From positions 186,001 to 250,000 of the forward strand of contig JAUWAC010000001.1 of NCBI GenBank assembly GCA_030602245.1: DNA of 64,000 bases. The letters run 5' to 3'. The notes under the pieces were generated by a model. It was not told the origin of the DNA. It made no database searches and saw only the letters and a list, made by a program, of their open reading frames with translations. Position 1 is the stretch's first letter. Each line of letters opens with the position of its first letter. Made by a program: the position numbers and the translations under genes. The stretch comes from Marinobacterium sp. GTDB taxonomy: Bacteria; Pseudomonadota; Gammaproteobacteria; Pseudomonadales; Balneatricaceae. Shown piece after piece: positions 28,525 through 53,094 of this stretch.

Positions 28525-29328
28525 TCAGCCGCGCGCCGGTGCAGCGCGCACGGTGCGTTCCGGGTTGAAGCTCAGAATCGCCAGCAGCGTGAACAGCACA
28601 GTGCAGCCAAGCGTGATCGCCAGTGCCGGCAGATTGAGCTGCTGATAGAGCGCAAAACGCACCAGCTCCACGGCATGGGTAAAGGGGTTGTACTGACAGA
28701 CCCAGTACAGCCATTCGCTGGACTCACGCATCTTCCACAACGGGTAGAGTGCCGAGGACAGGAAGAACATCGGAAAGATGACGAAATTCATCACGCCGGC
28801 GAAGTTTTCCAGCTGCCGGATGCGGGCGGACAGAAAGAGCCCGATTGCGCCCAGCAGCAGTGCCACCAGTACCAGTGCCGGCAGCACCGTCACCAGTCCC
28901 CACAGCGGTGGTTCGACGCCGGCGAGCCAGGCCAGCCCCAGAAACGCATAGACCTGAAGGATCGAGATCAGCGCGATCGCCAGCAGTTTGCTTACCAGCA
29001 GCCAGCTGCGCGGCACCGGACTCATCAGCAGCACTTTCATGCTGCCCATCTCCCGGTCGTAGACCATCGACAGTGAACTCTGCATGCCGTTGAACAGCAG
29101 GATCATGCAGCAAAGCCCCGGCGCGATATAGGTTTCGTAGGTGATGTAGGTCTGGTAGGGCGGGATGATCGCCACCCCCAGCGCGGCGCGAAAACCGGCG
29201 GCAAACACCACCAGCCAGAGCAGGGGGCGTACCAGCGCGCTGAGAAAACGGCTGCGTTGCTGGATGAAACGCCAGAACTCCCGTTTGACGACACCGTTGA
29301 ACGCGTACAGGCAGGTGTTCAGATTCAT
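28525..29328 (-). CDS. ABC-2 type permease, PQQ alcohol dehydrogenase-associated (PedC-like)
   Basis: A 267-residue membrane protein with six hydrophobic segments and the ABC-2 pattern (PGLCCMILLFNGMQ, ALYPLWKM, NPFTHAVELVRFALY). It overlaps the ATPase gene by 4 bases and closes a four-gene leftward operon of permease, ATPase, beta-propeller and binding protein, the composition described as PedA1A2BC in Pseudomonas putida. That transporter has been reported as important for rare-earth-dependent growth. Whether this permease imports metal or exports something else is not settled by sequence. Confidence 0.87.
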   Translation of the reverse strand: MNLNTCLYAFNGVVKREFWRFIQQRSRFLSALVRPLLWLVVFAAGFRAALGVAIIPPYQTYITYETYIAPGLCCMILLFNGMQSSLSMVYDREMGSMKVLLMSPVPRSWLLVSKLLAIALISILQVYAFLGLAWLAGVEPPLWGLVTVLPALVLVALLLGAIGLFLSARIRQLENFAGVMNFVIFPMFFLSSALYPLWKMRESSEWLYWVCQYNPFTHAVELVRFALYQQLNLPALAITLGCTVLFTLLAILSFNPERTVRAAPARG

Positions 29329-30065
29329 GCGGCAGGTGCTCCGGTCAGACGCTCGAACAGCTCGGTAACAGAGTCGATCCCCTGCTCACGGCAGATCGCT
29401 GCGCCGCTACCGCGCGCACAGACGCGGCCGCGATGCAGGATGATCAGCGGATCATCCGGCGCCACCTCCTCCAGCAGGTGGGTGGCCCAGAGCACGGTGA
29501 GTCCGCGCTCGTTGCAGAGCGATCGCACCGCGCGGTTGATCGTCTGCCGCGAGGCGATATCGAGACCGGCACTGGCCTCATCGAGCAGCAGTACCGACGG
29601 CTGGTGCAGCAGGGCGCGGGCAATCTCTACGCGCCGGCGATGGCCGCCATTGAGCGCCCGTACCCGGTCATGCCGTCGCTCAGCGAGACCGAGCCACTCC
29701 AGTTCGCAGGCCGCCCGTGCGCGTATCTGACGGCTGGAGAGTCCGTGCAGCGCACCGTGATATTCAAGGTTCTGCTGCACCGTCAGGTCCAGATCCAGCG
29801 TGCTTTGCTGGAACACGACACCGAGGTGGCCAAGATAGTGTCGCGGCGCCTCGTCTACCGGCACACCCTCGAACAGGATGTCGCCCTGCTGGATGCGGTA
29901 GAGTCGGGTGAGCAACGCGAACAACGTCGATTTGCCGGCGCCGTTCGGGCCCAGCAGCGCATTGAAGCCGCCGCGCTGCAACGTCAGGCTGACCCGGTCG
30001 AGCGCGAGGCGGGCGCCGTAACGGTGGCTCAGATGGCGGACCTCAATGGCCGGCTGCTCGTTCAT
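29325..30065 (-). CDS. ABC transporter ATP-binding protein, PQQ-associated (PedB-like)
   Basis: A 246-residue ATPase with Walker A GPNGAGKST near residue 38, a signature region reading LNGGHRRRVEIARALLHQP (the usual LSGGQ is LNGGH here) and Walker B VLLLDEAS. The start was placed at the ATG of MNEQPAIEVRHLSHRYG because GGAG lies six bases upstream; a longer frame exists. It is coupled to the permease by a 4-base overlap and sits 17 bases downstream of the beta-propeller gene, so it belongs to the same operon. Confidence 0.9.
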   Translation of the reverse strand: MNEQPAIEVRHLSHRYGARLALDRVSLTLQRGGFNALLGPNGAGKSTLFALLTRLYRIQQGDILFEGVPVDEAPRHYLGHLGVVFQQSTLDLDLTVQQNLEYHGALHGLSSRQIRARAACELEWLGLAERRHDRVRALNGGHRRRVEIARALLHQPSVLLLDEASAGLDIASRQTINRAVRSLCNERGLTVLWATHLLEEVAPDDPLIILHRGRVCARGSGAAICREQGIDSVTELFERLTGAPAA

Positions 30066-30082
30066 GCTGCGCTCCATTGCTG

Positions 30083-31054
30083 TCACGGGGTGGTGACGAC
30101 GCCCCACGGATAACGGCCGACCTTGATTGAGCGTTCGACCTTCAGATCGTCCACATTGATGACCGACACATCACCGCTGACGCCGTTGGTGGTCAGCAGG
30201 TAACGGCCATCCGGCGTGAACGCCATATGCCAGACCCGGCGTCCTACCAGCAGATAGTCGAGCACCTCGTAGCTGTTGGCGTCGACTACCGCCACGTGGT
30301 TGGCCGGCCCGAGCGCAACAAACGCATAGCGGCCATCGCGGGAGAGCTTGACCCCGACCGGCTGGATCTTGTCCGGATGGATGCCCTTGATCTCGAACGT
30401 CAGCTTTTTGATGATCTGTCGACTGGGGACATCGACCACCGATACGGTGCCGCCAATCTCGGCCGATGCCCACAGCAGCTGTCCGTCCTCACGGAACTCC
30501 ACGTGACGCGGACGCTGATCCACCAATGTGTTGTCCACCAGCGCGTGCGTCTGCGTATCGATCCAGTGCAGCATGTTGGTGGTTTCACTGGTATTCACCG
30601 CCCAGCGGCCATCGGGGCTCACCGCCATGCCTTCCGGCTCGACGCCGACTTCGATCTGCGCCAGCACCTCGTGGGTCTGCGTATCCACCACCGTCACCAG
30701 GGCATCGTCTTCGTTGGAGATGTAGAGCTTGCGGTTATCCGGGTGCAGGGCGAACTGCTCCGGGTCTGCCCCGGAGGGCAGGTTGGCGATGATGCGCCGG
30801 GTTGCCAGATCCATCACCTGTACGGTGTCGGAGTCGCTGGCGCAGATATAGAGCTTGCTGCCATCCTTTGACAGTGCGATGCCGCGCGGGCGCTCGCCGA
30901 CCTCGATGGTTTCGACAACCTGCCAGCTGTTCAGATCCAGCACCGACAGGGTGTCGTCCTTCTCATTGGAAATATAGGCGACACTGGCATGGGCGGTGCC
31001 GGCGGCGGCCAGTGCGCCGGCCAGCAGTGACATCACGAATCGGCTGCGTTTCAT
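30083..31054 (-). CDS. YVTN beta-propeller protein, PQQ-dependent catabolism-associated (PedA2-like)
   Basis: A 323-residue secreted protein: a signal peptide ending AGTAHA near residue 23, then seven or so repeats of the form AVSPDGRWAVNTSETTN and LSKDGSKLYICASDSD, typical of YVTN propellers. The family is strongly associated with quinoprotein alcohol dehydrogenase clusters. The start follows AAGGATTTAGCT. In the P. putida PedA1A2BC set the equivalent gene occupies the same place between the binding protein and the ATPase. Its exact role, perhaps as a periplasmic component of the transporter, is unknown. Confidence 0.9.
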   Translation of the reverse strand: MKRSRFVMSLLAGALAAAGTAHASVAYISNEKDDTLSVLDLNSWQVVETIEVGERPRGIALSKDGSKLYICASDSDTVQVMDLATRRIIANLPSGADPEQFALHPDNRKLYISNEDDALVTVVDTQTHEVLAQIEVGVEPEGMAVSPDGRWAVNTSETTNMLHWIDTQTHALVDNTLVDQRPRHVEFREDGQLLWASAEIGGTVSVVDVPSRQIIKKLTFEIKGIHPDKIQPVGVKLSRDGRYAFVALGPANHVAVVDANSYEVLDYLLVGRRVWHMAFTPDGRYLLTTNGVSGDVSVINVDDLKVERSIKVGRYPWGVVTTP

Positions 31055-31071
31055 AGCTAAATCCTTCCTGC

Positions 31072-32241
31072 TTATTCGACGACCCGGCAACCGCTCTCCG
31101 GCTCATCGAAGCCGAGCGTATCCAGATCGGTATGGGGGTGAAGAAAGCCATCCTGGGGGGACTGCGAGACCAGCGCGCGCGGATGCACCAGCGCAATGGG
31201 CTGGCGCAGCTGGCCGCTCCAGTGGCGGAAGTTGAGCTTGCGGCCCTTGAACGCCGCCAGCTCGAATTGATCCGACAGGATGTAGTCGCGCAGCCGGGCA
31301 GGGTCATTGCTGCCGGTACGGGTCACCGCCTCGGCGAGGGTGCGCACACCGGCCCAGCTGGCGTAGTCCTTCTCGTTCATCCAGCGCTGCGCCTGCGCCT
31401 CGAAGCGGCTGTGCAACTGAGCCGCGCCCCAGGCCTCGATCATCTTGTGCCAACCCACCGGCATCAGCCCCTGGGTGCCGACGACCGGGCGCGGCAGGCC
31501 GGTGTTGTAGGGCAGGTATTCGCCGAAATCACCGCGTTCGTCGGCGACCACGACGACGTCATACTCGGCGCCGGCGGTAAACGGCGGCAGTTCTTTCTGA
31601 GCGGTGCGGCGCAGGTCGGTATCGAAACTCCACGCCTTTTCGGCGACGATGCGGCCGCCAAATCGTTTCGCGGCGCGTCGGATGGCATCGGCAAATGCCT
31701 GATCATCGGCCGTGTTGCCACGCACCAGCAGCCAGCGATTCCAGCGCCGATAGATCAGCCATTGCGCCAGTGCGTCGGCCAGCATCGCCCGCGACGGGAT
31801 CGTATGCAGCAGCTGATCGATGCACTGATCGGTGCGCAGGGCGTCAGCGCGGCTGCCCGCGTTGATCAGCAGGCTATCGTCCGGCAGGGCCTCGCGCAGG
31901 GCTGCCAGTGTCGCTGCGTCGGTGTTGAGCACGAACAGGCGCAGGCCGCGGTCGTACAGTGCCCGCGAATCGGCAACCAGTTGCCGGGCGTCCTCACCCT
32001 CGATTGTGTGCAGTTCATAGTGGTGCTTCAGGAAGCGCCCGGTGGTGTTGCTGTCGGCGATCGCCAGCTGTGCCCCCTGACGACCGGCATCGTCGGGTTC
32101 GGGAATGATATTGGAGAGCACAGGTCCGCGATCAATGATCTGGCCGACGTAGGCGACATCCACATTCAGGGCGGACCTGGCGGCCGGGCTGAAGGGCAAC
32201 AGGCAGGCGATACCTGCAGCCAGAAGGCGGTTTCTCAGCAT
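31072..32241 (-). CDS. ABC transporter substrate-binding protein, PQQ alcohol dehydrogenase system (PedA1-like)
   Basis: A 389-residue periplasmic protein with a signal peptide (MLRNRLLAAGIACLLPFSPAARSA) and a two-lobed, Leu/Ile/Val-binding-protein-like fold; recognisable stretches are VDVAYVGQIIDRGP, IAEKAWSFDTDLRRTAQ-like (here IVAEKAWSFDTD) and WMNEKDYASWAGVRTLAEAV. The frame runs on upstream across a plus-strand gene, but the signal peptide fixes the start near 32241. First gene of the leftward operon. The substrate could be a lanthanide complex by analogy with PedA1; that is an inference. Confidence 0.85.
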   Translation of the reverse strand: MLRNRLLAAGIACLLPFSPAARSALNVDVAYVGQIIDRGPVLSNIIPEPDDAGRQGAQLAIADSNTTGRFLKHHYELHTIEGEDARQLVADSRALYDRGLRLFVLNTDAATLAALREALPDDSLLINAGSRADALRTDQCIDQLLHTIPSRAMLADALAQWLIYRRWNRWLLVRGNTADDQAFADAIRRAAKRFGGRIVAEKAWSFDTDLRRTAQKELPPFTAGAEYDVVVVADERGDFGEYLPYNTGLPRPVVGTQGLMPVGWHKMIEAWGAAQLHSRFEAQAQRWMNEKDYASWAGVRTLAEAVTRTGSNDPARLRDYILSDQFELAAFKGRKLNFRHWSGQLRQPIALVHPRALVSQSPQDGFLHPHTDLDTLGFDEPESGCRVVE

Positions 32242-32325
32242 AGTCGATCGTATTGTTGTTATGGATGCATTCAGCTTAGGGAGGGGGTGACGTCGGTGAA
32301 ATATGCTGAAGGTCGCAAACAAATG

Positions 32326-32340
32326 GTACTCAAGTAGCAT
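32326..32340 (+). promoter_or_regulatory. PQQ-regulon box, cupredoxin-like gene (divergent region)
   Basis: GTACTCAAGTAGCAT matches the pqqA box (GTTCCAAAGTACCAT) at 11 of 15 positions. A TAGCAT sequence at 32362, 36 bases after the box start, is the candidate -10 element. Bases 32323-32340 are also a near palindrome (ATGGTACT-CA-AGTAGCAT, 7 of 8 paired), so one site could serve the leftward ABC operon too. Confidence 0.5.
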
Positions 32341-32412
32341 TTTGCGCAGCGGGGCCGCCTCTAGCATGGGAAGGCAATCGAATCCGAACCTTTCAGCGAC
32401 AGGAGCCCGACG

Positions 32413-32844
32413 ATGATCTCTGCACGCAACACCCTGCTGGCGTTCGCCGCAACGACACTGATGGCCGGCCCGCTGCATGCCGCCGGTGACCTGACCACCC
32501 GCCCCGAGGCGCTGCCGGATCTGGTGCTTGGCAGCGAGCAGAGCGACTACGCGATGTCGCAGACGGTCTACGAGATGGAAACCGGACAGGCGTACAGCCT
32601 CAGGATCATCTCCACCGGACGCAAGGAATACGCGATCCGCGCACCGGAGTTCTTCACCTCGATCTACCTGCGCAAGGTCGAGGCCGGTGATATGGAGATC
32701 AAGGCGATGACGCTGACCGAGCTTGAGTTTGAGCAGGAGGGGGAAGCCGAGATCTACTTCGTGCCGATCAAGCCCGGTACCTTCGAGTTTTACTCCGATG
32801 GTCTCGAAAACAAGGGGATGGTGGGCCAGTTTCGCGTCAAATGA
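32413..32844 (+). CDS. Periplasmic cupredoxin-like protein without copper ligands
   Basis: A 143-residue secreted protein: signal peptide ending GPLHAA, then a beta-rich domain whose C-terminal part reads FVPIKPGTFEFYSDGLENKGMVG, the layout of a cupredoxin ligand loop (normally PGTYEFYCxxxxHxxxM). The Cys is replaced by Ser and the mature protein has no Cys and no His at all; only the Met of KGM remains. Copper binding of type 1 is therefore not expected. It lies between the divergent ABC operon and cytochrome c550, with GACAGGAG upstream. Function unknown; similar genes accompany PQQ alcohol dehydrogenases. Confidence 0.75.
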   Translation: MISARNTLLAFAATTLMAGPLHAAGDLTTRPEALPDLVLGSEQSDYAMSQTVYEMETGQAYSLRIISTGRKEYAIRAPEFFTSIYLRKVEAGDMEIKAMTLTELEFEQEGEAEIYFVPIKPGTFEFYSDGLENKGMVGQFRVK

Positions 32845-32858
32845 TCCCGCTCGGGCTA

Positions 32859-32873
32859 CTACCATCGGACCAT
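32859..32873 (+). promoter_or_regulatory. PQQ-regulon box upstream of cytochrome c550
   Basis: CTACCATCGGACCAT matches the exaC box CTGCCAAGGGACCAT at 12 of 15 positions, and both are followed by five bases and then GTCTG. The position expected for a -10 element (32896-32901) reads CCAATA, a weak match. Confidence 0.5.
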
Positions 32874-33020
32874 CTTTTGTCTGCCAAGGTGCAATCCAAT
32901 ACGCGCGGCCGCTGCGCCATGATGACGTCAGTTCCATGCTCTCGTGTACCCAACCTCGAAGCATATCTGGCGTTTAACCGGCTGCTAACGGCCGCTCCAT
33001 AACAAGAACGGGTGAGTATT

Positions 33021-33464
33021 ATGGCAAAGCATTTTCATATCCCTGCACTGGCGCTGTCTGCACTGATCGCATCGGGCATCAGCTCTCAGGCGATGGCGCA
33101 CGGCGATGTGACGCCACAGGCGGTCAACGTTGAGGGGCTGACGCCGCTCGGTGACGAGTGGGCCGACACCAACCCCTACCGCAAACCCAGCGACGACTTC
33201 GAGCTGGCCGTCGAGATCGGCTCCTCTGCCTACAACCAGAACTGCGCGCGCTGTCACGGTCTGGAAGCGATTTCCGGCGGTATCGCGCCGGATCTGCGCC
33301 TGTTGACGCCGGACTTCGATGGCGACGACTGGTACAAGTACCGTGTCATCAACGGCGCGGTGCGCGATGGCAAGGTGTACATGCCGAAGATGGCCGAGAC
33401 GCTGAGCCAGGAAGCGCTGTGGGCAATCAAGACCTACCTGGATGTAAGGCATGAAGAGATGTAA
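33021..33464 (+). CDS. pedF: Cytochrome c550, PedF type
   Basis: A 147-residue periplasmic electron carrier that takes electrons from the quinoprotein alcohol dehydrogenase. Signal peptide ending AMAHG near residue 27, one haem site CARCH (Cys75, Cys78, His79) and a candidate axial Met in VYMPKMAE (Met121 or Met124). The start is the ATG after GGTGAG; a GTG three codons upstream is also in frame. Its end overlaps the next gene by 14 bases. Upstream lies a copy of the shared regulatory box. Confidence 0.9.
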   Translation: MAKHFHIPALALSALIASGISSQAMAHGDVTPQAVNVEGLTPLGDEWADTNPYRKPSDDFELAVEIGSSAYNQNCARCHGLEAISGGIAPDLRLLTPDFDGDDWYKYRVINGAVRDGKVYMPKMAETLSQEALWAIKTYLDVRHEEM

Positions 33465-34362
33465 GGCGCTTGGCTGGCTGCTTGCGCTCTGTCTGCTGAT
33501 CGGTGGACAGGCGCAGGCGCGCCTCTACGATGATGTCATCGCGTCCGGCTATGTTCGCATCGGCGTCTACCGCGACTTCCCGCCGTACTCCTGGGAGCAG
33601 GATGGCAACGCCCACGGCATCGACGTCGCGCTCGGACAGGCGATTGCGGATGCGCTCGGCGTTGAGCTGCGCCTGCACTGGATGACGCCGGACGAGACGC
33701 TTGATGACGATCTGCGTAACAACGTCTGGAAGGGGCATTACCTCGACAAGGACGAGGACAACCCGCTGGCGCTGAAGAACGTGGCCGACGTCATGCTGCG
33801 CGTCCCCTACGATCGTGACTTCTCCTATAAGCGCGATGCCCTCGGCCTGCTCGTCAACGAGCTGGTGGTGATGATGTCGCCGTACCATCAGGAGCGCTGG
33901 CAGCTCGCGTTCGATACCGAAAAGCTGGATGCCGTGCGCACGCTGGCCAAGTTCCAATACCACCCGATCGGAGTCGAGATCGACAGCCTGCCGGCGTTTT
34001 ACCTGACCTCGGCACTGCAGGGTCGCATGCGTGAGCAGACGCACCACTACGCCAATGCGCGTGAGGCGTTTGCAGCGATGCAGCAGGGGCGGGTGAGTGC
34101 CGTCATGGCGATGCGTTCGGAGATCGACTGGTTGCTGCATGAAACAGGCGGTGCGCGCTATCGCCGCGCCGAAAACGGCTTTCCGGCGATGGGCAAACAG
34201 GCCTGGGACATCGGCATCGCGGTGGCCGAGGACAGCCGTGATCTGGGCTACGCCGTCGAGGCGCTGTTCGATCGCATGATCCGCGACGGCAGCATGGCGC
34301 AGCTGTTTGCCCGCTATGGCGTCACCTACGAGCGACCCTCTCTGTACATGGCGGGTTCCTGA
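33451..34362 (+). CDS. Quinoprotein dehydrogenase-associated SBP, MoxJ-like
   Basis: A 303-residue periplasmic protein of the extracellular solute-binding family 3: signal peptide ending GQAQA, then SGYVRIGVYRDFPPYSWEQDG and GIDVALGQAIADALG, the type II binding fold seen in MoxJ/XoxJ proteins. In methylotrophs such proteins act as partners of the quinoprotein dehydrogenase, not as transporters. It starts inside the cytochrome c gene (14-base overlap), so the two are translated together, which supports a role with the dehydrogenase. No dedicated permease is adjacent in frame. Confidence 0.85.
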   Translation: MKRCKALGWLLALCLLIGGQAQARLYDDVIASGYVRIGVYRDFPPYSWEQDGNAHGIDVALGQAIADALGVELRLHWMTPDETLDDDLRNNVWKGHYLDKDEDNPLALKNVADVMLRVPYDRDFSYKRDALGLLVNELVVMMSPYHQERWQLAFDTEKLDAVRTLAKFQYHPIGVEIDSLPAFYLTSALQGRMREQTHHYANAREAFAAMQQGRVSAVMAMRSEIDWLLHETGGARYRRAENGFPAMGKQAWDIGIAVAEDSRDLGYAVEALFDRMIRDGSMAQLFARYGVTYERPSLYMAGS

Positions 34363-34447: not shown

Positions 34448-35401
34448 ATGTTTGTAACCGTGGTCAGAATCACGCTGCTGTTCATTCTCTCTCTGCCCGC
34501 CGCGCTCTCTGCGCAGGAGCTGCCGAGCGTGCGTGTCGGCATGTTGCAGTTCGGTACCGCGCATTGGGAGCTGGCCCATATCCGCAATGCCGGCCTTGAC
34601 CGTCACTACGGCTACCGTCTCGAGCTGATACCGCTGGCCAACTCATCCGCCGGGCGTCTGGCACTCAGTGCCGGCAGCGTCGACTGGATCGTTTCCGACT
34701 GGGTCTGGGCGGCACAGCGCACGCTGGCGGGAGAAGCGCTGCGCTTTATCCCGTTCTCGACCCGAATCGGTGAATTGCTCGTGCCCAGCGCCAGCCCGGT
34801 GCGGTCACTGGCGGATCTGTCTGGAAAACGCATCGGCGTCGCGGGCGGCCCTCAGGGCAAGAGCTGGCAACTGTTACAGGCGGCGGCCCGGTTGCAGGGT
34901 GTCGATCTGACCACGGCGGCCTCGGTCAGCTTCGGCTCGCCGCCGCTGCTCGGGAGAGAGCTGCAGCAGGGGCGGATCGATGCGCTGCTGACCTTCTGGC
35001 ACTTTGCCGCCCGCCTGCGGGCACGCGGTGATTACCGCACGCTGATCGGCGCCGACGAGATTGCCGCGCAACTGGGACTGGACCCGGCACTGCCGATGCT
35101 CGGCTACCTGGCCAGGGCATCATTTGTAGTTGAAAAACATGCGCTTGCGAACGCTTTTGCATCCTCAGTCTACGCTGCAAAACGCCAACTGCGCGACGAT
35201 CGCCACTGGCCTGCACTCCGGCCGTTGATGCGCGCCGACGCGGAGGCGGATTTCGCGGCGCTGCGCCACGGCTACCGTGCGGGAGAGCCGCAGGCACGCC
35301 TGTCACCGGCGCTGATCGACTCGGCTGTCCGTGCCTGGCCGCTGCTCGGTGACCCGGACAGGCCGCTGCCGCGTGACATCTTTATCGGCGTGGGTGAGTG
35401 A
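34448..35401 (+). CDS. ABC transporter substrate-binding protein, NMT1/SsuA-like
   Basis: A 317-residue secreted protein: signal peptide ending ALSAQ, then VRVGMLQFGTAHWELAHIRNAGLD and IVSDWVWAAQRTL in the pattern of sulfonate/nitrate/thiamine-precursor binding proteins, with RSLADLSGKRIGVAGGPQGKSW in the middle (in part). Its TGA shares bases with the ATG of the permease gene. It is the first gene of a three-gene importer set embedded in the PQQ island, directly before the alcohol dehydrogenase. The ligand is not evident. Confidence 0.85.
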   Translation: MFVTVVRITLLFILSLPAALSAQELPSVRVGMLQFGTAHWELAHIRNAGLDRHYGYRLELIPLANSSAGRLALSAGSVDWIVSDWVWAAQRTLAGEALRFIPFSTRIGELLVPSASPVRSLADLSGKRIGVAGGPQGKSWQLLQAAARLQGVDLTTAASVSFGSPPLLGRELQQGRIDALLTFWHFAARLRARGDYRTLIGADEIAAQLGLDPALPMLGYLARASFVVEKHALANAFASSVYAAKRQLRDDRHWPALRPLMRADAEADFAALRHGYRAGEPQARLSPALIDSAVRAWPLLGDPDRPLPRDIFIGVGE

Positions 35402-36159
35402 TGCTGGCCCGCCTGCGTGACTACCTCTGCGTCATCACTGGCCTTGTCCTGATCTGGCAGCTGTTTGCGCTGGTGCTCGCCGATCCGCTGCTGCCGGGCC
35501 CTGTACAGGTGGCCGCCACGATCGGCAGTGAGTGGCAAAGCGGTGCCTTGTCGCATCATCTGTTGGTGACGCTGCGCCGGGTGCTGATCGCGTTTGTGTT
35601 TGCCATGCTGCTCGGCAGCCTGATGGGGTGGGTGATGGGGCGCTCGGTGCGCAGCGACCGGTTGCTGGATCCGATACTGGTGCTGATGCTCAACCTGCCG
35701 GCACTGGTGCTGATTATCCTGCTCTACGTCTGGATGGGGCTGGTCGAGTCGGCCGCGGTTCTGGCAGTGATCCTCAACAAGCTGCCCAATGTGGCGGTGA
35801 CGATGCGCGAGGGCGTGCGCAGTCTCGATCCTCAGCTGGAGGAGATGGCCCGTATCTACCGTTTCAATGGCCGGCAGCGGGTGATGGATCTCTGGCTGCC
35901 GCAGCTGTTTCCCTACCTGATGGCAGCCACCCGCGGCGGCCTTGCGCTGATCTGGAAGATCGTCCTCGTGGTCGAGCTGCTCGGCCGTTCGGATGGGGTC
36001 GGCTTCCAGCTGCACCTGGCGTTTCAGCTGTTTGATGTCGCGGCGATTCTCGCCTACAGCCTCAGTTTTATTCTCGTCGTGCAGGCGGTCGAGTGGCTGT
36101 TACTGCAGCCGCTGGAGCGGCGTGCACGGCGCTGGCAGGGGGCGGTGCAGGGTGCTTGA
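35401..36159 (+). CDS. ABC transporter permease, SsuC/TauC-like
   Basis: A 252-residue inner-membrane permease with about six hydrophobic segments and the BPD-type coupling loop EMARIYRFNGRQRVMDLWLPQLFPYLMAATRGG (shown by its family pattern around residue 160). It starts at the ATG overlapping the stop of the binding-protein gene (TGATG) and overlaps the ATPase gene by 8 bases, so the three genes form one importer. Close relatives move sulfonates or taurine, but the context is alcohol oxidation. Confidence 0.88.
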   Translation: MLARLRDYLCVITGLVLIWQLFALVLADPLLPGPVQVAATIGSEWQSGALSHHLLVTLRRVLIAFVFAMLLGSLMGWVMGRSVRSDRLLDPILVLMLNLPALVLIILLYVWMGLVESAAVLAVILNKLPNVAVTMREGVRSLDPQLEEMARIYRFNGRQRVMDLWLPQLFPYLMAATRGGLALIWKIVLVVELLGRSDGVGFQLHLAFQLFDVAAILAYSLSFILVVQAVEWLLLQPLERRARRWQGAVQGA

Positions 36160-36784
36160 GCTGATGGTACGACACAAGGCGTATGACCGCGTGCTGCTCG
36201 AATCCCTGCAGCTGCAGATCCGTGCAGGGGAGCGTGTTGCCCTGATCGGGCCCTCCGGCAGCGGCAAAACCACGCTGCTGAACATCATTGCCGGCCTCGA
36301 TTCGGCGTTTGACGGCCATCGCCGCTGCACACCATCGCTGCGGATCGCCTACATGTTTCAGGAGCCGAGGCTGCTGCCGTGGCGCACCGTGGCGCAGAAC
36401 CTGAGACTGGCCGGGGCCGCGCCAAACCAGATAGTGCAGTTGTTGCGCGAGGTCGAGCTCGAAGCGGTCGAGGATCTGTATCCGCGTCAGCTGTCGCTGG
36501 GCATGGCGCGACGGGTCGCACTGGCCCGGGCGCTGGCGCTGCAGCCCGATCTTCTGCTACTGGATGAGCCCCTCGTTTCGCTGGATCCGGCGACCGCCGA
36601 GCGCATGCGACAGTTGCTGTGCCGCCTGCTGGCGCGTCGTCCCGGTCTCAGTCTGGTGCTTGTCTCCCATGACCCCCGCGATGCCGATGCGCTGGCCACG
36701 CGGACCCTCGCGCTGACGCCGAATGCTGCCCCGAGCGATGTGCGCGACAACGACCGCGCCAGGCAGGGTATTACTACCAAGTAA
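36152..36784 (+). CDS. ABC transporter ATP-binding protein, SsuB-like
   Basis: A 210-residue ATPase with Walker A GPSGSGKTT, a Q-loop MFQEPRLLPW, the signature region as LSLGMARRVALARAL (LSLGM instead of LSGGQ) and Walker B LLLLDEPLVSLD. It is shorter than typical SsuB (about 255). The start is GTG at 36152, which gives LELMVRHKAYDRVL as first strand; an ATG at 36164 is an alternative. Last gene of the importer set; the next gene is the quinoprotein dehydrogenase, 132 bases on. Confidence 0.87.
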   Translation: MLELMVRHKAYDRVLLESLQLQIRAGERVALIGPSGSGKTTLLNIIAGLDSAFDGHRRCTPSLRIAYMFQEPRLLPWRTVAQNLRLAGAAPNQIVQLLREVELEAVEDLYPRQLSLGMARRVALARALALQPDLLLLDEPLVSLDPATAERMRQLLCRLLARRPGLSLVLVSHDPRDADALATRTLALTPNAAPSDVRDNDRARQGITTK

Positions 36785-36788: not shown

Positions 36789-36916
36789 AAAACTGCTTCG
36801 GCCGGTCAATTGTTGGAAATCGGGCCGGCAACAAGAATAGCTGCAGAATCGGGCGCATGTCCCGATCGCGGGTAGCTCCCGAATCCAATAAGAATGATTC
36901 CGTTAAGGAGACGACA

Positions 36917-38695
36917 ATGAAACGAATCGGGCTCAGTACAGGCTTTGCAGTTACTGCCCTCGTTGCAGCGATGTCCACGGCCAGCGTTGCACAGGCCGGT
37001 GTAACCGACGAAGACATTTTGAACGATCAGATGACGACAGACGATGTCGTCTCCAATGGCCTTGGTCCGCGCGGGCAGCGCTTCAGTCCGCTGACCAGGG
37101 TGAATACCGATACCGTCAAGGAGCTGCGCCCGGTCTGGTCGTTCTCGTTCGGCGGCGAGAAGCAGCGCGGTCAGGAATCGCAGCCGATGGTGAAGGACGG
37201 TGTCATGTACGTCACCGCATCCTACTCCCGTGTCTTTGCGATCGACGTCAAAACCGGCGAAGAGCTGTGGGAGTACAACGCCCGTCTGCCGGACGGCATC
37301 ATGCCGTGCTGTGACGTGATCAACCGCGGCGTCGCACTGTATGACGATCTGGTTATCTTCGGCACGCTCGATGCCAAGCTGGTGGCGCTGAACAAGGACA
37401 CCGGCAAGACGGTGTGGAAGAAAACCGTGGCCGACTATCAGGAAGGCTACTCGCTGACCGCAGCGCCGATGATCGTCAAGGGCAAGGTCATCACCGGCGT
37501 ATCCGGCGGTGAATTCGGTGTCGTCGGCAAGGTCGAAGCCTACGATGCGAAAACCGGCGATCTGGTCTGGACCCGTCCGACCGTCGAAGGTCACATGGGG
37601 TACGTCTACAAGGACGGCAAGCCGGTTGAAAACGGCATCTCCGGTGGCCAGCCGGGCCAGACCTGGCCGGGCGATCTGTGGAAGACCGGCGGCGCGGCCA
37701 CCTGGCTCGGCGGCTACTACGACCCGGATACCGACAGCATCCTGATCGGCACCGGTAACCCGGCACCCTGGAACTCTCATATGCGTCCGGGTGACAACCT
37801 GTTCTCCTCATCGCGTCTGGCGATCGACCCGGATGACGGCTCGATCAAATGGCACTTCCAGTCCACCCCGCATGACGGCTGGGATTACGACGGCGTCAAC
37901 GAGCTGATCGCGTTCGACTACGAGGACAACGGCAAGACCGTCAAGGCCGCAGCCACCGCCGACCGTAACGGCTTCTTCTACGTCCTGAACCGCGAAAACG
38001 GTGATTTCATCCGTGGCTTCCCGTTCGTCGACAAGATCACCTGGGCCAAAGGCCTTGATGACAACGGTCGTCCGATCTACGACGACAGCATGCGCCCGGG
38101 CAACCCGGCAGATGCGAAGAAGGGCGAAACCGTCGTCGCCGCACCATCCTTCCTCGGCGGCAAGAACTGGATGCCGATGGCCTACAGTCAGGAAACCGGC
38201 TACTTCTACGTGCCCTCCAATGAGTGGGAGATGAATATCTGGAACGAGCCGGTCAACTACAAGAAGGGTGCCGCCTATCTGGGTGCCGGCTTCACCATCC
38301 GCGCCATCAACGAGGATTACATCGGCGTACTGCGCGCGATCGACCCCAAAAATGGCAAGGAAGTGTGGCGCTACACCAACTACGCACCGCTGTGGGGTGG
38401 TGTGCTGGCGACGGCCGGTGGCCTTGTCTTTACCGGTAACCCGGAAGGCTACCTGATGGCGTTTGACGCCAAGTCCGGCGAGATGCTGTACAAGTTCAAC
38501 ACCGGCTCCGGTATCGTCGGCTCGCCGATCACCTGGGAGATGGATGGCGAACAGTACGTCTCCGTTGTCTCCGGCTGGGGTGGTGCGGTACCGCTGTGGG
38601 GCGGCGAAGTCGCCAAGCGCGTCAAGCACTTCAACCAGGGCGGTTCGGTCTGGACCTTCAAGCTGCCGGCCAGCGCCGAGATGGCCAGCCGCTGA
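36917..38695 (+). CDS. PQQ-dependent alcohol dehydrogenase, predicted lanthanide type
   Basis: Periplasmic quinoprotein that oxidises methanol, ethanol or larger alcohols and reduces cytochrome c. 592 residues, signal peptide ending VAQA (about residue 27), start after AAGGAGACGACA. Eight-bladed propeller hallmarks: the adjacent cysteines Cys131-Cys132 (MPCCD), metal ligands Glu199 (SGGEFG) and Asn281 (GTGNPAPWN), and catalytic Asp323 in GWDYDGVNE. Asp325, two residues later, is the extra acidic ligand characteristic of XoxF and PedH lanthanide enzymes; calcium enzymes have Ala, Ser or Thr there. No MxaI-type small subunit is encoded. A terminator follows, so it is monocistronic. Confidence 0.92.
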
Positions 38696-42352: not shown

Positions 42353-42685
42353 ATGTCGCTGTCTGACCGACGCTGCGTACCCTGCAATAAGGGCGAACCG
42401 CCATTGACGGTGGAAAAAGCGCGGGCGCTGAGCCAGCAGGTGCCGCAATGGACGTTGTCGGAGCATGCCACGCGGCTGCGACGCCGCTACCGCTTCGACG
42501 ACTTTCAGCAGGCGCTGGCGTTCGTCAACACCGTCGGCGAACTGGCAGAAGAGGAAGGACACCATCCGGAGATCAGCTTTGGCTGGGGCCACGCCGAGAT
42601 CGAGATCTGGACCCACAAGATTGATGGTCTGCACCAGAACGACTTTATCCTCGCCGCGCGCATCGATGCACGCAGCGGCCTCTGA
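42353..42685 (+). CDS. phhB: Pterin-4a-carbinolamine dehydratase
   Basis: Recycles the tetrahydrobiopterin-type cofactor of phenylalanine hydroxylase. 110 residues, with the family core ATRLRRRYRFDDFQQALAFVN, the active-site histidines in EEGHHPEISFGWG and WTHKIDGLHQNDFILAARID. GAGGTG precedes the ATG. PhhB is usually beside phhA, but no phenylalanine hydroxylase gene lies here. Convergent with luxS, with a shared terminator between. Confidence 0.92.
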   Translation: MSLSDRRCVPCNKGEPPLTVEKARALSQQVPQWTLSEHATRLRRRYRFDDFQQALAFVNTVGELAEEEGHHPEISFGWGHAEIEIWTHKIDGLHQNDFILAARIDARSGL

Positions 42686-42770: not shown

Positions 42771-43283
42771 TCAGCTGTGTTCCTTGAGGAACTCCTCGCT
42801 GAGGCTCAGGGCTTCGTTGCTGTTGATCTCGATGCCGCGATCGAGAATGTTGCGTGCGATCTGCTTGGCCTCATCCAGTGAGTGCATGGTGTAGGTGCCG
42901 CACTGATACTGATTCAGCTCCGGAATATCGGCTTCGCTTTTCACGTTCAGCACGTCCTCCATGGCAGCACGCCATGCTGCGGCAACGTCCTTCTCGCCCG
43001 GTGCGCCAATCAGGCTCATGTAGAACCCGGTGCGGCAACCCATCGGCGAGATGTCGATGATTTCGACCCGGTCGCTGTTCAGGTGGTCGCGCATGAAGCC
43101 GGCAAACAGGTGCTCGAGCGTGTGAATGCCTTTCTCCGACAGGATCTCCTGGTTCGGCAGGCAGAAGCGCAGATCGAACACGGTGATCGGGTCGCCCTTG
43201 GGCGTATTCATCGTCTTGGCGATGCGCACAGCCGGCGCGTGCATACGGGTGTGATCGACGGTGAAGCTGTCTAGGAGAGGCAT
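42771..43283 (-). CDS. luxS: S-ribosylhomocysteine lyase LuxS
   Basis: Converts S-ribosylhomocysteine to homocysteine and the precursor of autoinducer 2, in the activated methyl cycle. 170 residues, with the metal-binding HTLEH motif near residues 54-58, the catalytic Cys in MGCRTGFYM near residue 83, and the third metal ligand Cys in [17 protein letters not shown]. Everything needed for activity is present. It stands alone; whether the product is used for signalling cannot be told, since no LuxP or Lsr receptor is in the window. Confidence 0.97.
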
Positions 43284-43566: not shown

Positions 43567-45087
43567 ATGATCTACGCACAGCCCGGTACAGAAGGTTCTG
43601 TTGTCTCTTTCAAACAGCGCTACGGCAACTACATTGGCGGCGAGTGGGTTGCGCCGGTGAAAGGCCAGTACTTCACCAACGTGACGCCGGTGACCGGCGA
43701 GGCGATCTGCGAAATCCCGCGCTCATCCGCCGAAGATATCGATCTGGCACTGGATGCGGCACACAAGGCAAAAGACGCCTGGGGCCGTACCTCCGTGACC
43801 GAGCGCTCCAACATCCTGCTCAAGATCGCTGATCGCATCGAAGCCAATCTGGAAAAGCTGGCCGTTGCCGAAACCTGGGATAACGGCAAGGCCGTTCGTG
43901 AAACCCTGGCCGCCGACGTGCCGCTGTCGGCCGATCACTTCCGTTACTTCGCCGGCTGTATCCGTGCGCAGGAAGGCACCATCGGCGAGATCGACGAGAA
44001 CACCGTGGCCTATCATTTCCATGAGCCGCTGGGTGTGGTCGGTCAGATCATTCCGTGGAACTTTCCGCTGCTGATGGCGGCGTGGAAACTGGCACCGGCA
44101 CTGGCTGCCGGCAACTGCATCGTGCTCAAGCCGGCCGAGCAGACCCCTGCCTCCATTCTGGTACTGGCGGAAATCATCGGTGATCTGCTGCCGCCGGGCG
44201 TACTGAACATCGTCAACGGCTACGGTGCCGAGGCCGGTCAGGCGCTGGCCACCAGCACCCGTATCGCCAAGATCGCGTTCACCGGTTCCACTCCGGTCGG
44301 CTCCCACATCCTCAAGTGCGCGGCCGAAAACATCATCCCGTCCACCGTTGAACTGGGCGGCAAGTCGCCGAACATCTACTTCGAAGATGTGATGAATCAC
44401 GAAGACAGCTTCCTGAGCAAGTGTGTCGAGGGCACCGTGCTGGCGTTCTTCAACCAGGGCGAAGTGTGCACCTGTCCGTCGCGCCTGCTGATCCAGGAGA
44501 GCATCTACGACGACTTCATCTCGCTGGTCATCGACCGTATCAAGCAGATCAAGCGCGGCAATCCGCTGGATACCGAAACCATGGTCGGCGCGCAGGCGTC
44601 TCAGGAGCAGTATGACAAGATCCTGGGCTACCTCGAGATCGGCCGTCAGGAGGGTGCGGAGTGCCTGATCGGTGGTGCTGCCGAGCAGCTGGGCGACAAG
44701 CTCAACAACGGCTACTACATCCAGCCGACGCTGCTGAAAGGCCGCAACGACATGCGCGTATTCCAGGAAGAGATCTTCGGCCCGGTTGTCGCCGTGACCA
44801 CCTTCAAGGACGAGGCTGAAGCGCTGGCGATCGCCAACGATACCGAATTCGGTCTCGGTGCCGGTGTCTGGTCACGCGATATGAACCGTTCATGCCGTAT
44901 GGGTCGTGGCATTCAGGCCGGCCGCGTCTGGACCAACTGCTACCACGCCTACCCGGCACATGCCGCATTCGGTGGCTACAAGAAATCCGGCGTCGGGCGC
45001 GAGACCCACAAGATGATGCTGGATCACTATCAGCAGACCAAGAACATGCTGGTCAGCTACAGCACTGATCCGCTCGGTTTCTTCTGA
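43567..45087 (+). CDS. exaC: NAD-dependent aldehyde dehydrogenase, ExaC type
   Basis: Oxidises the acetaldehyde (or other aldehyde) made by the quinoprotein alcohol dehydrogenase to the acid in the cytosol. 506 residues, class 3-like ALDH fold: NAD-binding IPWNFPLLM and [11 protein letters not shown], general base Glu262 in VELGGKSP, catalytic Cys301 in [11 protein letters not shown] and C-terminal [15 protein letters not shown]. Length and pattern match ExaC/AldB acetaldehyde dehydrogenases. It is preceded by the shared regulatory box and followed by a terminator, then pqqA. Confidence 0.93.
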
Positions 45088-45199: not shown

Positions 45200-45226
45200 A
45201 TCGGCTCCCCCGGGAGCCGATTTTTT
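45200..45226 (+). terminator. Rho-independent terminator after exaC
   Basis: ATCGGCTCCC and GGGAGCCGAT pair around CC, giving at least 8 usable base pairs, followed by six Ts (45221-45226). It lies 113 bases after the exaC stop and separates exaC from the pqq operon. Confidence 0.9.
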
Positions 45227-45231
45227 ATGTA

Positions 45232-45361
45232 CAGGACGTACGGTATGCCGCGAAGGACAAGGATGTCCGGGAGCGGCTATGTCAGGACGTACGGTATGCC
45301 GCGCAGGACAAGGATGTCCGAGAGCGGCGATGGTCAGGACGTACGCTATGCCGCGAAGGAG
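45232..45361. repeat. Tandem repeat of 51-52 bp, about 2.5 copies
   Basis: Copies begin at 45232, 45283 and 45335 with CAGGACGTAC(G)GTATGCCGCG; the third is partial. The first two contain GGACA-AGGA-TGTCC, a small hairpin. Copies differ at few bases. The period changes from 51 to 52, so it does not preserve a reading frame. It lies between the exaC terminator and the pqqA promoter. Confidence 0.85.
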
Positions 45362-45649: not shown

Positions 45650-46570
45650 ATGAACGTTCAGATTCTGGGTTCTGCCGCCGGCGGTGGTTTCCCGCAGTGG
45701 AACTGCAACTGCGACAACTGCAGCGGCGTCAGAAACGGCACCCTCAACGCCACGCCCCGCACCCAATCATCGATTGCCGTATCCAGTAATGGCATCGACT
45801 GGGTACTGTTCAACGCATCCCCCGATATTCGGGCTCAGCTGGCCGATTTCGCGCCGATGCAGCCGGCCCGCGCCCGGCGTGATACCGGCATTGGCGCCAT
45901 CGTGCTGATGGACAGCCAGATCGACCACACCACCGGGTTGCTGATGCTGCGCGAAGGCTGTCCGCACGAGGTCTGGTGCACCGATATGGTGTATCAGGAT
46001 CTCACCACCGGATTCCCGATCTTCAACATGCTCGAGCACTGGAACGGTGGCCTGCAGCGCAAACGGATCCGCGTCGATGAGGCGGTCAACCGGTTCAGCA
46101 TCGACTGCGCGCCGGGGCTCGAATTCATTGCCGTGCCGCTGATCTCCAGCGCGCCGCCATATTCTCCCCATCGCAACGATCCGCACCCGGGCGATAACAT
46201 CGGCATCCTGATCCGCGATACCCGGAGCCAGAAGTCGCTGTTCTATGCCCCCGGCCTTGGTCGCATCGAGCCACATCTGCCGCAACTGATGGCGGAAGCG
46301 GACTGCCTGCTGGTGGATGGCACGCTGTGGCGCGAGGATGAAATGATCCACGCCGGTGTCGGCGACAAGCTCGGCGTGCATATGGGGCATCTGCCGCAAT
46401 CCGGCGAGAACGGCATGATCGCGTTCCTCGATACCCTCGAGAAGCCGCGCAAGGTGCTGATTCACATCAACAACACCAACCCCATCCTGATTGAGGACTC
46501 GCCCGAGCGCGCCACGCTGGCCGCACACGGGATCGAGGTCTCGTACGATGGCATGAGCATCGAACTCTAG
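45650..46570 (+). CDS. pqqB: PQQ biosynthesis protein PqqB
   Basis: Metallo-beta-lactamase-fold protein, reported to hydroxylate the Glu-Tyr-derived intermediate. 306 residues with the family N-terminus [19 protein letters not shown], the CxCxxC zinc site in CNCDNC, the altered metal site [16 protein letters not shown], and [14 protein letters not shown]. No clear ribosome site precedes the ATG. Second gene of the pqq operon. Confidence 0.97.
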
Positions 46571-46579
46571 GAGCACGAC

Positions 46580-47335
46580 ATGAGCACACAGGAACCGATG
46601 AGCCGTGAAGCGTTCGAGCAGGCCCTGCGCGCCAAAGGCGAGCTGTACCATATCCATCACCCGTTTCATGTCGACATGTACGAGGGGCGCTCGACGCCGG
46701 AACAGATCCGCGGTTGGGTTGCCAACCGCTTCTACTATCAGATCAATATTCCGCTCAAGGATGCGGCGATCATGGCCAACTGCCCGGATCGTGACGTGCG
46801 CCGCCAGTGGGTACAGCGCATTCTCGACCACGATGGCTATGACGGTGCCGAGGGTGGCATCGAAGCCTGGCTGCGTCTCGGCGAAGCGGTGGGGCTGACG
46901 CGTGAGGAGATCCTGTCGCAGGAACACGTCCTGCCCGGGGTGCGTTTTGCCGTCGATGCCTACGTCAACTTTGCGCGCCGCGCGAGCTGGGAGGAGGCGG
47001 CCAGTTCGTCGCTGACCGAGCTGTTCGCGCCCACCATCCATCAATCGCGGCTGGATACCTGGCCCGGCCACTATCCGTGGATCAAGCAGGAGGGGTACCA
47101 GTACTTCCGTAACCGTCTCACCGAAGCGCGCCGCGACGTGAAGCATGGCCTGACCATCACGCTTGATTTCTACAAGACCCGCGAGCAGCAGGAGCGCATG
47201 CTGGAGATCCTGCAGTTCAAGCTCGATGTGCTCTGGACCATGCTCGATGCCATGAGCATGGCGTATGAACTGGAGCGTCCGCCGTATCACACCGTGACCC
47301 GTGAGCGGGTCTACCACCGGGGGCTGTTGCGATGA
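46580..47335 (+). CDS. pqqC: Pyrroloquinoline-quinone synthase PqqC
   Basis: Cofactorless oxidase that performs the final ring closure and eight-electron oxidation to PQQ. 251 residues, all helical, with [28 protein letters not shown] (in part), the active-site [10 protein letters not shown] and the [16 protein letters not shown] region. It starts 10 bases after pqqB with GGAG upstream, and its end overlaps pqqD by 4 bases. Confidence 0.97.
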
Positions 47336-47628
47336 GTGCGCCAGCCAGCCAGCCCGACAAGATGGCGGCGGTCCCGGTGCTGGAGCGGATGTTCCGCTTC
47401 CAGTGGGAGGAAGCGCAGCAGTGCTACGTGCTGCTTTACCCGGAAGGGATGGTCAGGCTCAACGACAGCGCCGGCGAGATTCTGGCACTGGTCGACGGCG
47501 CGCGCTCGGTGGCCCGGATCTGCAGCCAGCTGGAGCAGAAGTTCCCGGCGGCCGGCGATCTGAGCGGCGATATCCTGGAGTTTATGGAGGTGGCCCTTGA
47601 GCAGCGTTGGATCCACTACCGCCGCTAA
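47332..47628 (+). CDS. pqqD: PqqA-binding chaperone PqqD
   Basis: Small winged-helix protein that presents PqqA to PqqE. 98 residues, with the RiPP-recognition fold: [30 protein letters not shown] (in part), then [25 protein letters not shown]. Starts within the pqqC stop (ATGA) and overlaps pqqE by 32 bases, so the three are translationally coupled. Confidence 0.96.
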
Positions 47629-48766
47629 GCTCGCACGCGAGCGCCAGCCACACGGGCAGCCCCTGTGGCTGCTCGCCGAGCTGACCTACAAGTGTCCGCT
47701 GCAGTGTCCCTACTGCAGCAATCCGCTCGATTTTGCCGACACCGGAGCCGAACTGAGCACCGAACAATGGATCGATGTGTTCCGTCAGGCCCGCCGCCTG
47801 GGCGCCGCCCAGCTCGGCTTCTCCGGCGGAGAGCCGCTGGTGCGGCGCGACCTTGAACGCCTGATCGCCGAAGCGCGGCAACTGGGCTACTACACCAACC
47901 TCATTACCTCCGGCATCGGCCTGGATGCGGCGCGAATCGCCGCGTTCCGGGAGGCGGGGCTGGATCATATCCAGGTCAGCTTTCAGGCCGCGGACGAGGA
48001 GGTCAATAACCTGCTCGCCGGCTCGAAAAAGGCGTTTGCGCAGAAGCTGGCGATGGCGCGGGAGGTCAAGGCGCAGGGCTATCCGATGGTGCTCAACTTC
48101 GTCACCCATCGGCACAACATCGACCGTATCGATCGCATCATCGAACTGTGCGTCGAGCTGGAAGCCGATTACGTCGAACTCGCCACCTGCCAGTATTACG
48201 GCTGGGCCTACGAAAACCGCGAGCAGCTGCTGCCCACCCGGGCTCAGCTCGAACGTGCCGAGCACATCACCAACGAATACCGTGCCCGCCTGGCCGAGCA
48301 GGGCAATCCGATCAGGCTGATCTTCGTCACGCCCGACTATTACGAAGAGCGACCGAAAAAGTGCATGAACGGCTGGGGCGAAATCTTTCTCACGGTCACG
48401 CCGGACGGCACCGCGCTGCCGTGTCACAGCGCGCGCATGCTGCCGATCGCGTTCCCCAATGTGAAGCAGCAGTCGCTGGAACAGATCTGGAACGAGTCCA
48501 GCGGCTTCAACCACTTCCGCGGTGATGACTGGATGCAGGAGCCCTGTCGCTCCTGCGATGAAAAAGCGCACGACCACGGCGGCTGCCGCTGTCAGGCGTA
48601 TCTGCTGACCGGCGATATGAACGCGGCCGATCCGGTCTGCGCCAAGTCGCCGCATCATGACACAATTCTCGCCGCCCGGCAGGCGGCTGAAGCGCCGGCG
48701 CACGAGACCGACGTCACCTACCGTAACGAGCGCAACTCCCGTGTCTTTGCCCGCTCCATCGACTGA
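47597..48766 (+). CDS. pqqE: Radical SAM PQQ synthase component PqqE
   Basis: Forms the Glu-Tyr carbon bond in PqqA. 389 residues from a TTG start preceded by GGAGGT with 5-base spacing. The radical SAM cluster is CPLQCPYC (Cys33, Cys37, Cys40); SPASM-domain cysteines are in [16 protein letters not shown] and [19 protein letters not shown]. It overlaps pqqD and is followed by the S9 peptidase gene, whose probable start lies inside its last codons. Confidence 0.96.
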
Positions 48767-51930: not shown

Positions 51931-53094
51931 ATGACCCAGGAAGTATCCAGTCTGCGCAAGTTCGTTGCGCCGGAAATCATCTTCGGCAGCGGCGCACGCC
52001 GCATGGTCGCGAACTACGCGAAAACCTTTGGCGCCCACAGGGTGTTGCTGGTCTCCGATCCGGGCGTGCTCAACGCCGGTTGGGTGCTGGAGATCGAGCA
52101 GTTGCTGCACGAACAGGGGCTTGGCGTGGTGCGCTTTATCGATGTCTCCCCCAATCCGCGCAGCGAAGAGGTGATGCGCGGCGCACAGGTCTATCAAGAA
52201 GCCGGCTGCGATGTCATCGTCGCGGTGGGCGGAGGCAGCCCGATGGACTGTGCCAAGGGGATCGGCATTGTCAGCGCCCACGGTGAACAGATCCGCCACT
52301 TCGAGGGTATCGATCGCACCACAAATCCGATTCCGCCGCTGATCTTTATTCCGACCACGGCCGGCACCTCGGCTGATGTCTCCCAGTTCGCCATCATTTC
52401 CGATCAGCAGGATCGGGTGAAGTTTTCCATCGTCAGCAAATCGGTGGTGCCGGATGTCTCGCTGATCGACCCGGATACCACCAGTACCATGTCGCCGTTC
52501 CTGACCGCCTGTACCGGTGTCGACGCGCTGGTGCATGCCATTGAAGCGTTCGTCTCAACCGGCAGCGGCCCGCTGACCGACATGCATGCATTGGATGCAA
52601 TTCGCCTGATAAACAGTCACTTGGCACTGCTTGTTGAACAGCCGGATGATAAATATCTGCGCGAACAGATCATGCTCGGATCGATGAAAGCAGGGCTCGC
52701 GTTCTCCAATGCGATCCTCGGCGCGGTGCATGCGATGTCGCACAGCCTCGGCGGCTACCTCGATCTGCCGCACGGGCTCTGTAACGCGATCCTCGTCGAG
52801 CATGTGATCGACTACAACTACCGCGCCGCCGAAGACCGCTTTGCGATCATTGCGCAGACAATGGGGATCGACACGCGAGGGCTGACCAGCAACCAGATCC
52901 GCAAGCGTCTGCGCAACCATGTCACTGCGCTGAAACGGGACGTGGGGCTGGCCGACTCCCTGGGCAAGTTCGGCGTCAGTGTCAGTGACATTCCCTACCT
53001 CAGCGCCAATGCCATCAAGGACCCCTGCATCCTGACCAACCCGCGTCGCTCCAATGTGCGCGATGTTGAGATCGTCTATGAAGAAGCCCTCTGA
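51931..53094 (+). CDS. ercA: Iron-containing alcohol dehydrogenase, ErcA type
   Basis: A 387-residue group III alcohol dehydrogenase: NAD-binding VAVGGGSPMDCAKG near residue 97, iron ligands Asp and His in TGVDALVHAIEAF and two His in GAVHAMSHSLGGYLDLPHGLCNA (in part). In Pseudomonas, ErcA belongs to the ethanol oxidation regulon and is thought to act in signalling, not in bulk ethanol oxidation. The start has AAGGAA two bases upstream of the ATG spacing. It overlaps the sensor kinase gene by 17 bases, the arrangement expected for ErcA with its kinase. Confidence 0.87.
   Translation: MTQEVSSLRKFVAPEIIFGSGARRMVANYAKTFGAHRVLLVSDPGVLNAGWVLEIEQLLHEQGLGVVRFIDVSPNPRSEEVMRGAQVYQEAGCDVIVAVGGGSPMDCAKGIGIVSAHGEQIRHFEGIDRTTNPIPPLIFIPTTAGTSADVSQFAIISDQQDRVKFSIVSKSVVPDVSLIDPDTTSTMSPFLTACTGVDALVHAIEAFVSTGSGPLTDMHALDAIRLINSHLALLVEQPDDKYLREQIMLGSMKAGLAFSNAILGAVHAMSHSLGGYLDLPHGLCNAILVEHVIDYNYRAAEDRFAIIAQTMGIDTRGLTSNQIRKRLRNHVTALKRDVGLADSLGKFGVSVSDIPYLSANAIKDPCILTNPRRSNVRDVEIVYEEAL

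Follow-up and report, generated by a model that had tools for sequence, protein, structure and literature searches.

The window (the whole 64,000-nucleotide stretch of Marinobacterium DNA that was analysed) carries a gene for a predicted PQQ alcohol dehydrogenase of the PedH type, together with candidate genes for metal transport, electron transfer, PQQ synthesis, aldehyde oxidation and regulation (Table 1). Members of the families TIGR03863, TIGR03866, TIGR03864 and TIGR03861 lie side by side at 28525-32964 and are divergent from pedF, and a three-gene ABC importer (34448-36784, plus strand) sits between pedG and pedH. The 592-aa dehydrogenase begins with a signal-like stretch; an in-frame ATG upstream, at 36857, would give a product of 612 aa. 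Between the pedH segment and the exaC and pqq segments lie genes for LuxS and pterin-carbinolamine dehydratase, at 42774-43283 (minus strand) and 42353-42682 (plus strand). A tandem array at 45226-45360 (51-base unit, 2.6 copies, 91% matches) lies about 130 bases before pqqA. A nearby rhodanese was considered as the PQQ-associated family TIGR03865 and rejected, since its score for that family was 20 bits (cut-off, 128) and it was nearest to GlpE. A search for the SoxYZ-fusion family gave no match in the genome and none in the controls either.

Table 1. Predicted features of the pedH region (positions are those of the window)
Feature	Position	Strand	Basis or remark
PedC/LutF-type permease	28525-29328	-	TIGR03861, over cut-off
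PedB/LutE-type ATPase	29325-30107	-	TIGR03864, over cut-off
YVTN beta-propeller protein of PQQ-ADH/Lut cluster	30083-31090	-	TIGR03866, over cut-off
PedA/LutA-type binding protein	31072-32964	-	TIGR03863, 493.8 bits, over cut-off
PedF cytochrome c-550, predicted electron acceptor of the dehydrogenase	33021-33464	+	TIGR04494, 204.6 bits, over cut-off
PedG-type periplasmic SBP_bac_3 protein, XoxJ/MxaJ-like role by synteny	33451-34362	+	No specific NCBIfam model matched
PqqT-like periplasmic binding protein, NMT1/SsuA-type	34448-35401	+	PDB 9b1u/9b1v/9ooz, E 2e-58
SsuC-like permease, same ABC importer	35398-36159	+	Family model
SsuB-like ATPase, same ABC importer	36164-36784	+	ATG 36164; alternatives GTG 36152, longer ORF from 35993
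PedH-type lanthanide-dependent PQQ alcohol dehydrogenase (predicted)	36917-38695	+	592 aa; E199, N281, D323, D325; adjacent Cys131-Cys132
Codons 323-325: catalytic Asp323, Tyr324, lanthanide-signature Asp325	37883-37891	+	Computed from start 36917
ExaC acetaldehyde dehydrogenase	43567-45087	+	NF050026, over cut-off
pqqA precursor peptide, 23 aa	45488-45559	+	Recognised by eye from peptide
pqqB	45650-46570	+	TIGR02108, over cut-off
pqqC	46580-47335	+	TIGR02111, over cut-off
pqqD candidate, 98 aa	47332-47628	+	Position and length
pqqE, start uncertain	47597-48766	+	TIGR02109, over cut-off
ErcA Fe-ADH-like regulatory protein	51931-53094	+	NF041833
NahK/ErcS-family hybrid sensor kinase	53054-54835	+	NF041832

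Class and metal ligands of the dehydrogenase

The dehydrogenase scored 796 bits against the NCBIfam profile for PQQ methanol/ethanol dehydrogenases (TIGR03075; cut-off, 480) and has a full-length quinoprotein domain. In a sequence search of the PDB, the best matches were the Pseudomonas putida PedH entries 6zcv and 6zcw (1037 bits for 6zcv), followed by calcium-type ExaA (682 bits) and then by a type II enzyme and XoxF (6dam), at about 373 bits each; on these scores, an assignment as a XoxF methanol dehydrogenase was rejected. Foldseek, queried with a moderate predicted model, also returned 6zcw as the top match (75% identity over 558 columns). In a tree of 39 rows (quick method, no bootstraps), the window enzyme shared a group (99, starred) with six PedH rows from the same genus, the PDB PedH fell in the same D-x-D branch (93), and ExaA and all D-x-S rows formed a separate branch (100, starred); the position of XoxF says little, since it is represented by a single row on a long branch. 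Checked by phylogeny against PedH, ExaA and XoxF, the enzyme thus lies within the PedH branch and apart from ExaA/PedE. The calcium-type ExaA/PedE assignment was rejected, both because Asp325 stands where Ser or Thr would be expected and because the D-x-S rows branch apart. Judged from its sequence, the window enzyme is a PedH orthologue and belongs to the PedH/ExaF class (PQQ-ADH type 2b).

The original prediction had read the catalytic segment as GWDYDGVNE, with Asp325 two positions beyond the catalytic Asp323, and had described the remaining metal ligands, Glu199 and Asn281, as intact. The D-x-D reading proved correct to the residue, and both other ligands are present, Glu199 as the last residue of SGGE and Asn281 within GNP. 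All four match the Pr3+ ligands of P. putida PedH (6ZCW) as given in the accessible part of a review (PMC11845868). To place the motif among relatives, we used a table in which some genes were entered twice, the window's own locus was included and matches with fewer than 400 aligned residues were dropped. D-x-D was found in 103 of 103 rows with at least 76% identity and DFSGNNE in 34 of 34 rows at 52 to 57%, while five rows at 35 to 40% had neither. Because each motif is uniform in its range of identity, D-x-D in the window enzyme is not a product of chance. The adjacent pair Cys131 and Cys132 was invariant across 20 aligned rows. A structure prediction from a shallow alignment reached a mean pLDDT of 69.8 and fell below 50 at residues 198 to 203 (including Glu199) and 282 to 295, leaving the geometry of the metal site unreadable.

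An ABC importer resembling PqqT between pedG and pedH

Gene order was compared across 80 named pedH loci, 63 of which had nearly full 8-kb flanks (shortest, 6.1 kb overall). Plus-strand matches were counted, except that the PqqT-type protein was sought on both strands; matches covering less than 35 to 50% of the query were dropped, and matches to the false ORF x155 were due to its overlap with pedF on the opposite strand. Of the 80 loci, some of which were cut short, 69 had a PedG-type gene in the orientation of pedH, and the pedG-pedH gap in those 69 ranged from 85 to 5162 bases. The binding protein was found in just 3 of the 80, namely, the three Marinobacterium loci; in other genomes it may still be encoded away from pedH, as the family sample below shows. 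Within the genus, the importer occupies the pedG-pedH interval in all seven genomes inspected (all but G005), namely, that of the window and six others, represented by loci L033, L035 and L191-L194.

The binding protein of this importer matched the PDB entries 9b1u/9b1v (PqqT) and 9ooz at E values of 2e-58 to 7e-58, and the next match, a sulfonate binder, had an E value of 0.009. A plain sulfonate importer of the SsuABC kind is weakened as an identification by this difference. We conclude from the sequence comparison that the binding protein is a PqqT homologue, and its ligand may well be PQQ. Residues 28 to 288 align with PqqT, and Lys138 stands opposite the Lys at chain index 115 of 9b1u, which would correspond to K142 of PqqT, a residue that we take to have a role beside PQQ. 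In a 53-row alignment of the binding protein, Lys138 was kept in 96% of rows, and Lys138, Trp40, Trp87, Trp140 and Trp184 as a set were kept in 96 to 100%; this pattern would suit an aromatic ligand. The predicted structure (pLDDT, 55.6; shallow alignment) gave no usable ligand site.

Co-occurrence of the binding protein with lanthanide-type enzymes

The distribution of the binding protein was examined in three overlapping genome samples. Among 274 Gammaproteobacteria, it was present in 15 (E 1e-20) and the D-x-D DNA pattern, which is an exact pattern and misses variants, in 32; all 15 were among those 32. Among 398 Pseudomonadota, the corresponding numbers were 38 (E 1e-10; weakest match, 5e-46) and 65, and again all 38 lay within the 65. 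The TIGR03075 cut-off was exceeded in 95 of these 398 genomes, including all 65 with the D-x-D pattern, so that among PQQ-ADH-bearing Pseudomonadota the binding protein occurred in 38 of 65 genomes with the pattern versus 0 of 30 without it (Fisher 3e-9, kinship not corrected). In the family sample (n = 74), for which D-x-D status was assigned by identity to PedH and not by motif, 23 genomes had the binding protein; every one of these belonged to the 49 that carry a PedH-type enzyme, and none to the 25 that do not. Taken together, all 73 different genomes with the binding protein also had a lanthanide-type enzyme. Thus, the PqqT-type protein occurs only with lanthanide-type enzymes in the genomes sampled, although kinship inflates the counts. 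Three family-sample genomes carried a second, weaker copy of the binding protein, down to E 6e-27. In G082 and G087, a second, weaker PqqT-like copy (35 to 36% identity) shares its contig with a PQQ-ADH relative of 34% identity, at a distance of about 9 to 10 kb.

We then inspected 34 neighbourhoods outside the genus, comprising all 14 other class-sample hits and a hand-chosen 20 of the 37 other phylum-sample hits; the false ORFs x155, x130, x138 and x156 were dropped from these tables. Importer-type permease and ATPase genes stood beside the binding protein in 11 of the 14 class-sample and 19 of the 20 phylum-sample neighbourhoods; neither was detected in L181, L183 and L184, and no permease in L286. 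Genes like pedB and pedC were both present on the same 12- to 20-kb stretch in 22 of the 34 (10 of 14 and 12 of 20, respectively). In L181 and L184, which belong to one genus, the PqqT-like protein adjoins pedB/pedC-like genes, and no SsuBC-type permease or ATPase was found directly beside it, so it might there serve the pedB/pedC-type transporter.

Two other accounts of this association deserve weight. The importer may carry a cargo different from free PQQ, whether a sulfonate, a Ln-PQQ complex or a chelator of lanthanides, and this cargo would then explain the link to lanthanide enzymes. This account draws on the NMT1/SsuA-type classification of the binding protein by both Pfam and NCBIfam and on the frequent presence of pedB- and pedC-like genes nearby; however, the nearest solved relatives are PqqT and stand far above the sulfonate binders, and the SsuA family model scored well under its cut-off (28.8 versus 163.5 bits). 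We regard a different cargo as a serious minority possibility. The co-occurrence could also have arisen through common descent and comparable lifestyles, with no functional link, given that the sampled genomes are related, that counts are therefore not independent and that the binding protein is absent from 27 of the 65 D-x-D genomes. Against this, the positives of the class and phylum samples are spread over 23 family codes, and no more than 20 kb separate the binding protein from a D-x-D site in 29 of the 38 phylum-sample genomes (in the other nine the two are farther apart or on different contigs). A by-product of this kind appears rather unlikely to us, somewhat more so than a different cargo.

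In the literature covered, in which subscription journals are mostly missing and which is therefore weak evidence of absence, no text linked lanthanide-type enzymes through genome co-occurrence to either PqqT or an importer of the NMT1/SsuA type; for the importer type, the same held for the accessible parts of PMC12482762, PMC6277846, PMC10728633 and PMC10848612. The last of these reports, in its accessible text, lanthanide-dependent expression of ssuABCDE, for which its authors suggest possible oxidative stress. The term "PqqT" in the available portion of PMC13088180 is a chemical abbreviation in the reference list, not the protein.

Paralogues and distribution in the family

The original prediction had noted that no calcium-type paralogue is present in the window. 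This holds, and the TIGR03075 search extends it to the whole genome (90.67% complete; a missed copy is possible), in which the window enzyme was the single match over the cut-off. The remaining weak matches all fell in one 390-aa frame on contig C20, which we take to be of the size of BamB. The genome comprises 2.39 Mb in 26 contigs, compared to 3.5 to 5.6 Mb for seven other genomes of the genus, and so is either reduced or incompletely assembled. The nearest named relatives, at 91 to 92%, are Marinobacterium lutimaris, M. zhoushanense and M. mangrovicola. A D-x-S paralogue was found in four of the eight genus genomes (G001, G003, G004 and G005) and in none of the other four (G000, the genome studied here, G002, G006 and G007). 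G006, apparently M. zhoushanense, yielded no further PQQ-ADH above the TIGR03075 cut-off.

For the family (n = 116), we assigned types by identity (PedH-type, at least 76%, fragments counted; PedE-type, 55 to 59%). PedH-type enzymes were present in 73 genomes, PedE-type enzymes in 28 and both in 27. Thus, 46 of the 73 PedH-bearing genomes had no PedE-type enzyme, and 38 genomes with a PedH-type enzyme had no further PQQ-ADH match at E 1e-60. One genome (G086) had a PedE-type without a PedH-type enzyme, and one (G044) had solely a more distant type. After removal of eight genomes that were less than 90% complete or more than 5% contaminated, the PedE-type enzyme was still absent from 41 of 65 PedH-type genomes (at least 90% complete, at most 5% contaminated). 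In the family sample, the lanthanide-type enzyme is therefore the commonest PQQ alcohol dehydrogenase, and it frequently has no calcium-type twin. The idea that the PedH-only state is a rarity was rejected on these counts, and the earlier inference from a missing calcium-type paralogue is sound but not remarkable. According to the accessible part of a 2025 survey (PMC11996626), lanthanide PQQ enzymes occur in 20% of marine microbial genomes.

Discussion

We are confident of the following overall explanation. The PedH orthologue would act in the periplasm, oxidising alcohols and aldehydes with the help of PQQ and of a light lanthanide bound by Glu199, Asn281, Asp323 and Asp325; its electrons would go to PedF, the cytochrome whose gene lies upstream. 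Import of the lanthanide into the cytoplasm is probably the task of the divergent PedABC/Lut-type operon, the PedG-type protein may aid maturation of the enzyme, the pqq genes would supply the cofactor, and ExaC would oxidise the resulting aldehyde. The PqqT-like importer in the pedG-pedH interval most likely recaptures PQQ from the periplasm; according to the accessible text of PMC12124388, PqqT helps M. extorquens to retain and capture PQQ. The direct observations are the sequence, its orthology, the ligands, the order of the genes and the co-occurrence in the samples. From them we infer lanthanide dependence, substrate range, the functions in transport and maturation, and that the importer's ligand is PQQ.

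A lanthanide enzyme, as originally proposed, is favoured by the PedH orthology, the four ligands, the linked Lut/PedABC-type importer genes and PedF/PedG. The further suggestion, a possible reliance of the organism on rare earths in this route, is borne out as far as a 90.67%-complete genome shows. Strict dependence of the enzyme on lanthanides is probable rather than established, because the case is built on sequence and because PedH, according to the accessible part of a review (PMC11845868), is apparently able to coordinate Ca2+ when rare earths are absent. If the enzyme preferred lanthanides and could also use Ca2+ in seawater, a missing calcium-type paralogue would not equal rare-earth dependence. 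Besides that review, the title of PMC10409515, which refers to broad metal selectivity of a PedE-type enzyme, leans this way. However, purified PedH was reported to be inactive under PedE conditions and to gain activity with La, Ce, Pr, Nd, Sm, Gd or Tb (PMC5487730, accessible text), and we consider such promiscuity improbable, more so than either alternative account of the importer.

The enzyme itself is ordinary and extends a known case, being a PedH orthologue whose lineage is frequently without the calcium-type twin. The importer beside pedH is the unexpected part and the one worth following. What the analysis adds is a connection of PqqT-type capture of PQQ to lanthanide-type enzymes, and with it a testable idea of why PQQ recapture should matter for lanthanide enzymes particularly. 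Tentatively, and against the odds as we now see them, PqqT-type ABC importers might be a dedicated part of lanthanide alcohol oxidation across Pseudomonadota, recapturing PQQ (possibly as Ln-PQQ) for D-x-D dehydrogenases only, with PedH-only Marinobacterium lineages joining metal import, cofactor recapture and the enzyme in one locus.

Among known systems, PedH of P. putida KT2440 (6zcv/6zcw) shares the four metal ligands and the adjacent Cys pair, and the P. putida ped cluster likewise has pedF/pedG- and PedABC-type genes (PMC12997753, accessible part). P. putida differs in also having the calcium-type PedE (PMC5487730), none being detected in the Marinobacterium genome, and its ped cluster, as described in the available text of PMC12997753, is without the PqqT-type importer seen here between pedG and pedH. 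ExaF of Methylorubrum extorquens AM1, a lanthanide ethanol dehydrogenase, is likened by its PQQ-ADH type 2b class (PMC11996626, accessible part), not by sequence. The lanthanide importer PedA1A2BC/LutAEF has the same four TIGR families as the 28525-32964 segment; for such PedABC/Lut-type genes in P. putida, see PMC6839425. Here, unlike in PedA1A2BC/LutAEF, the genes diverge from the pedF-pedG-pqqT-pedH stretch, and they would serve import. Finally, PqqT of Methylobacterium extorquens AM1 (9b1u/9b1v) is homologous to the binding protein; unlike pqqT of that organism, the gene described here is encoded with a permease and an ATPase inside the pedH region, where its product would probably bind PQQ.
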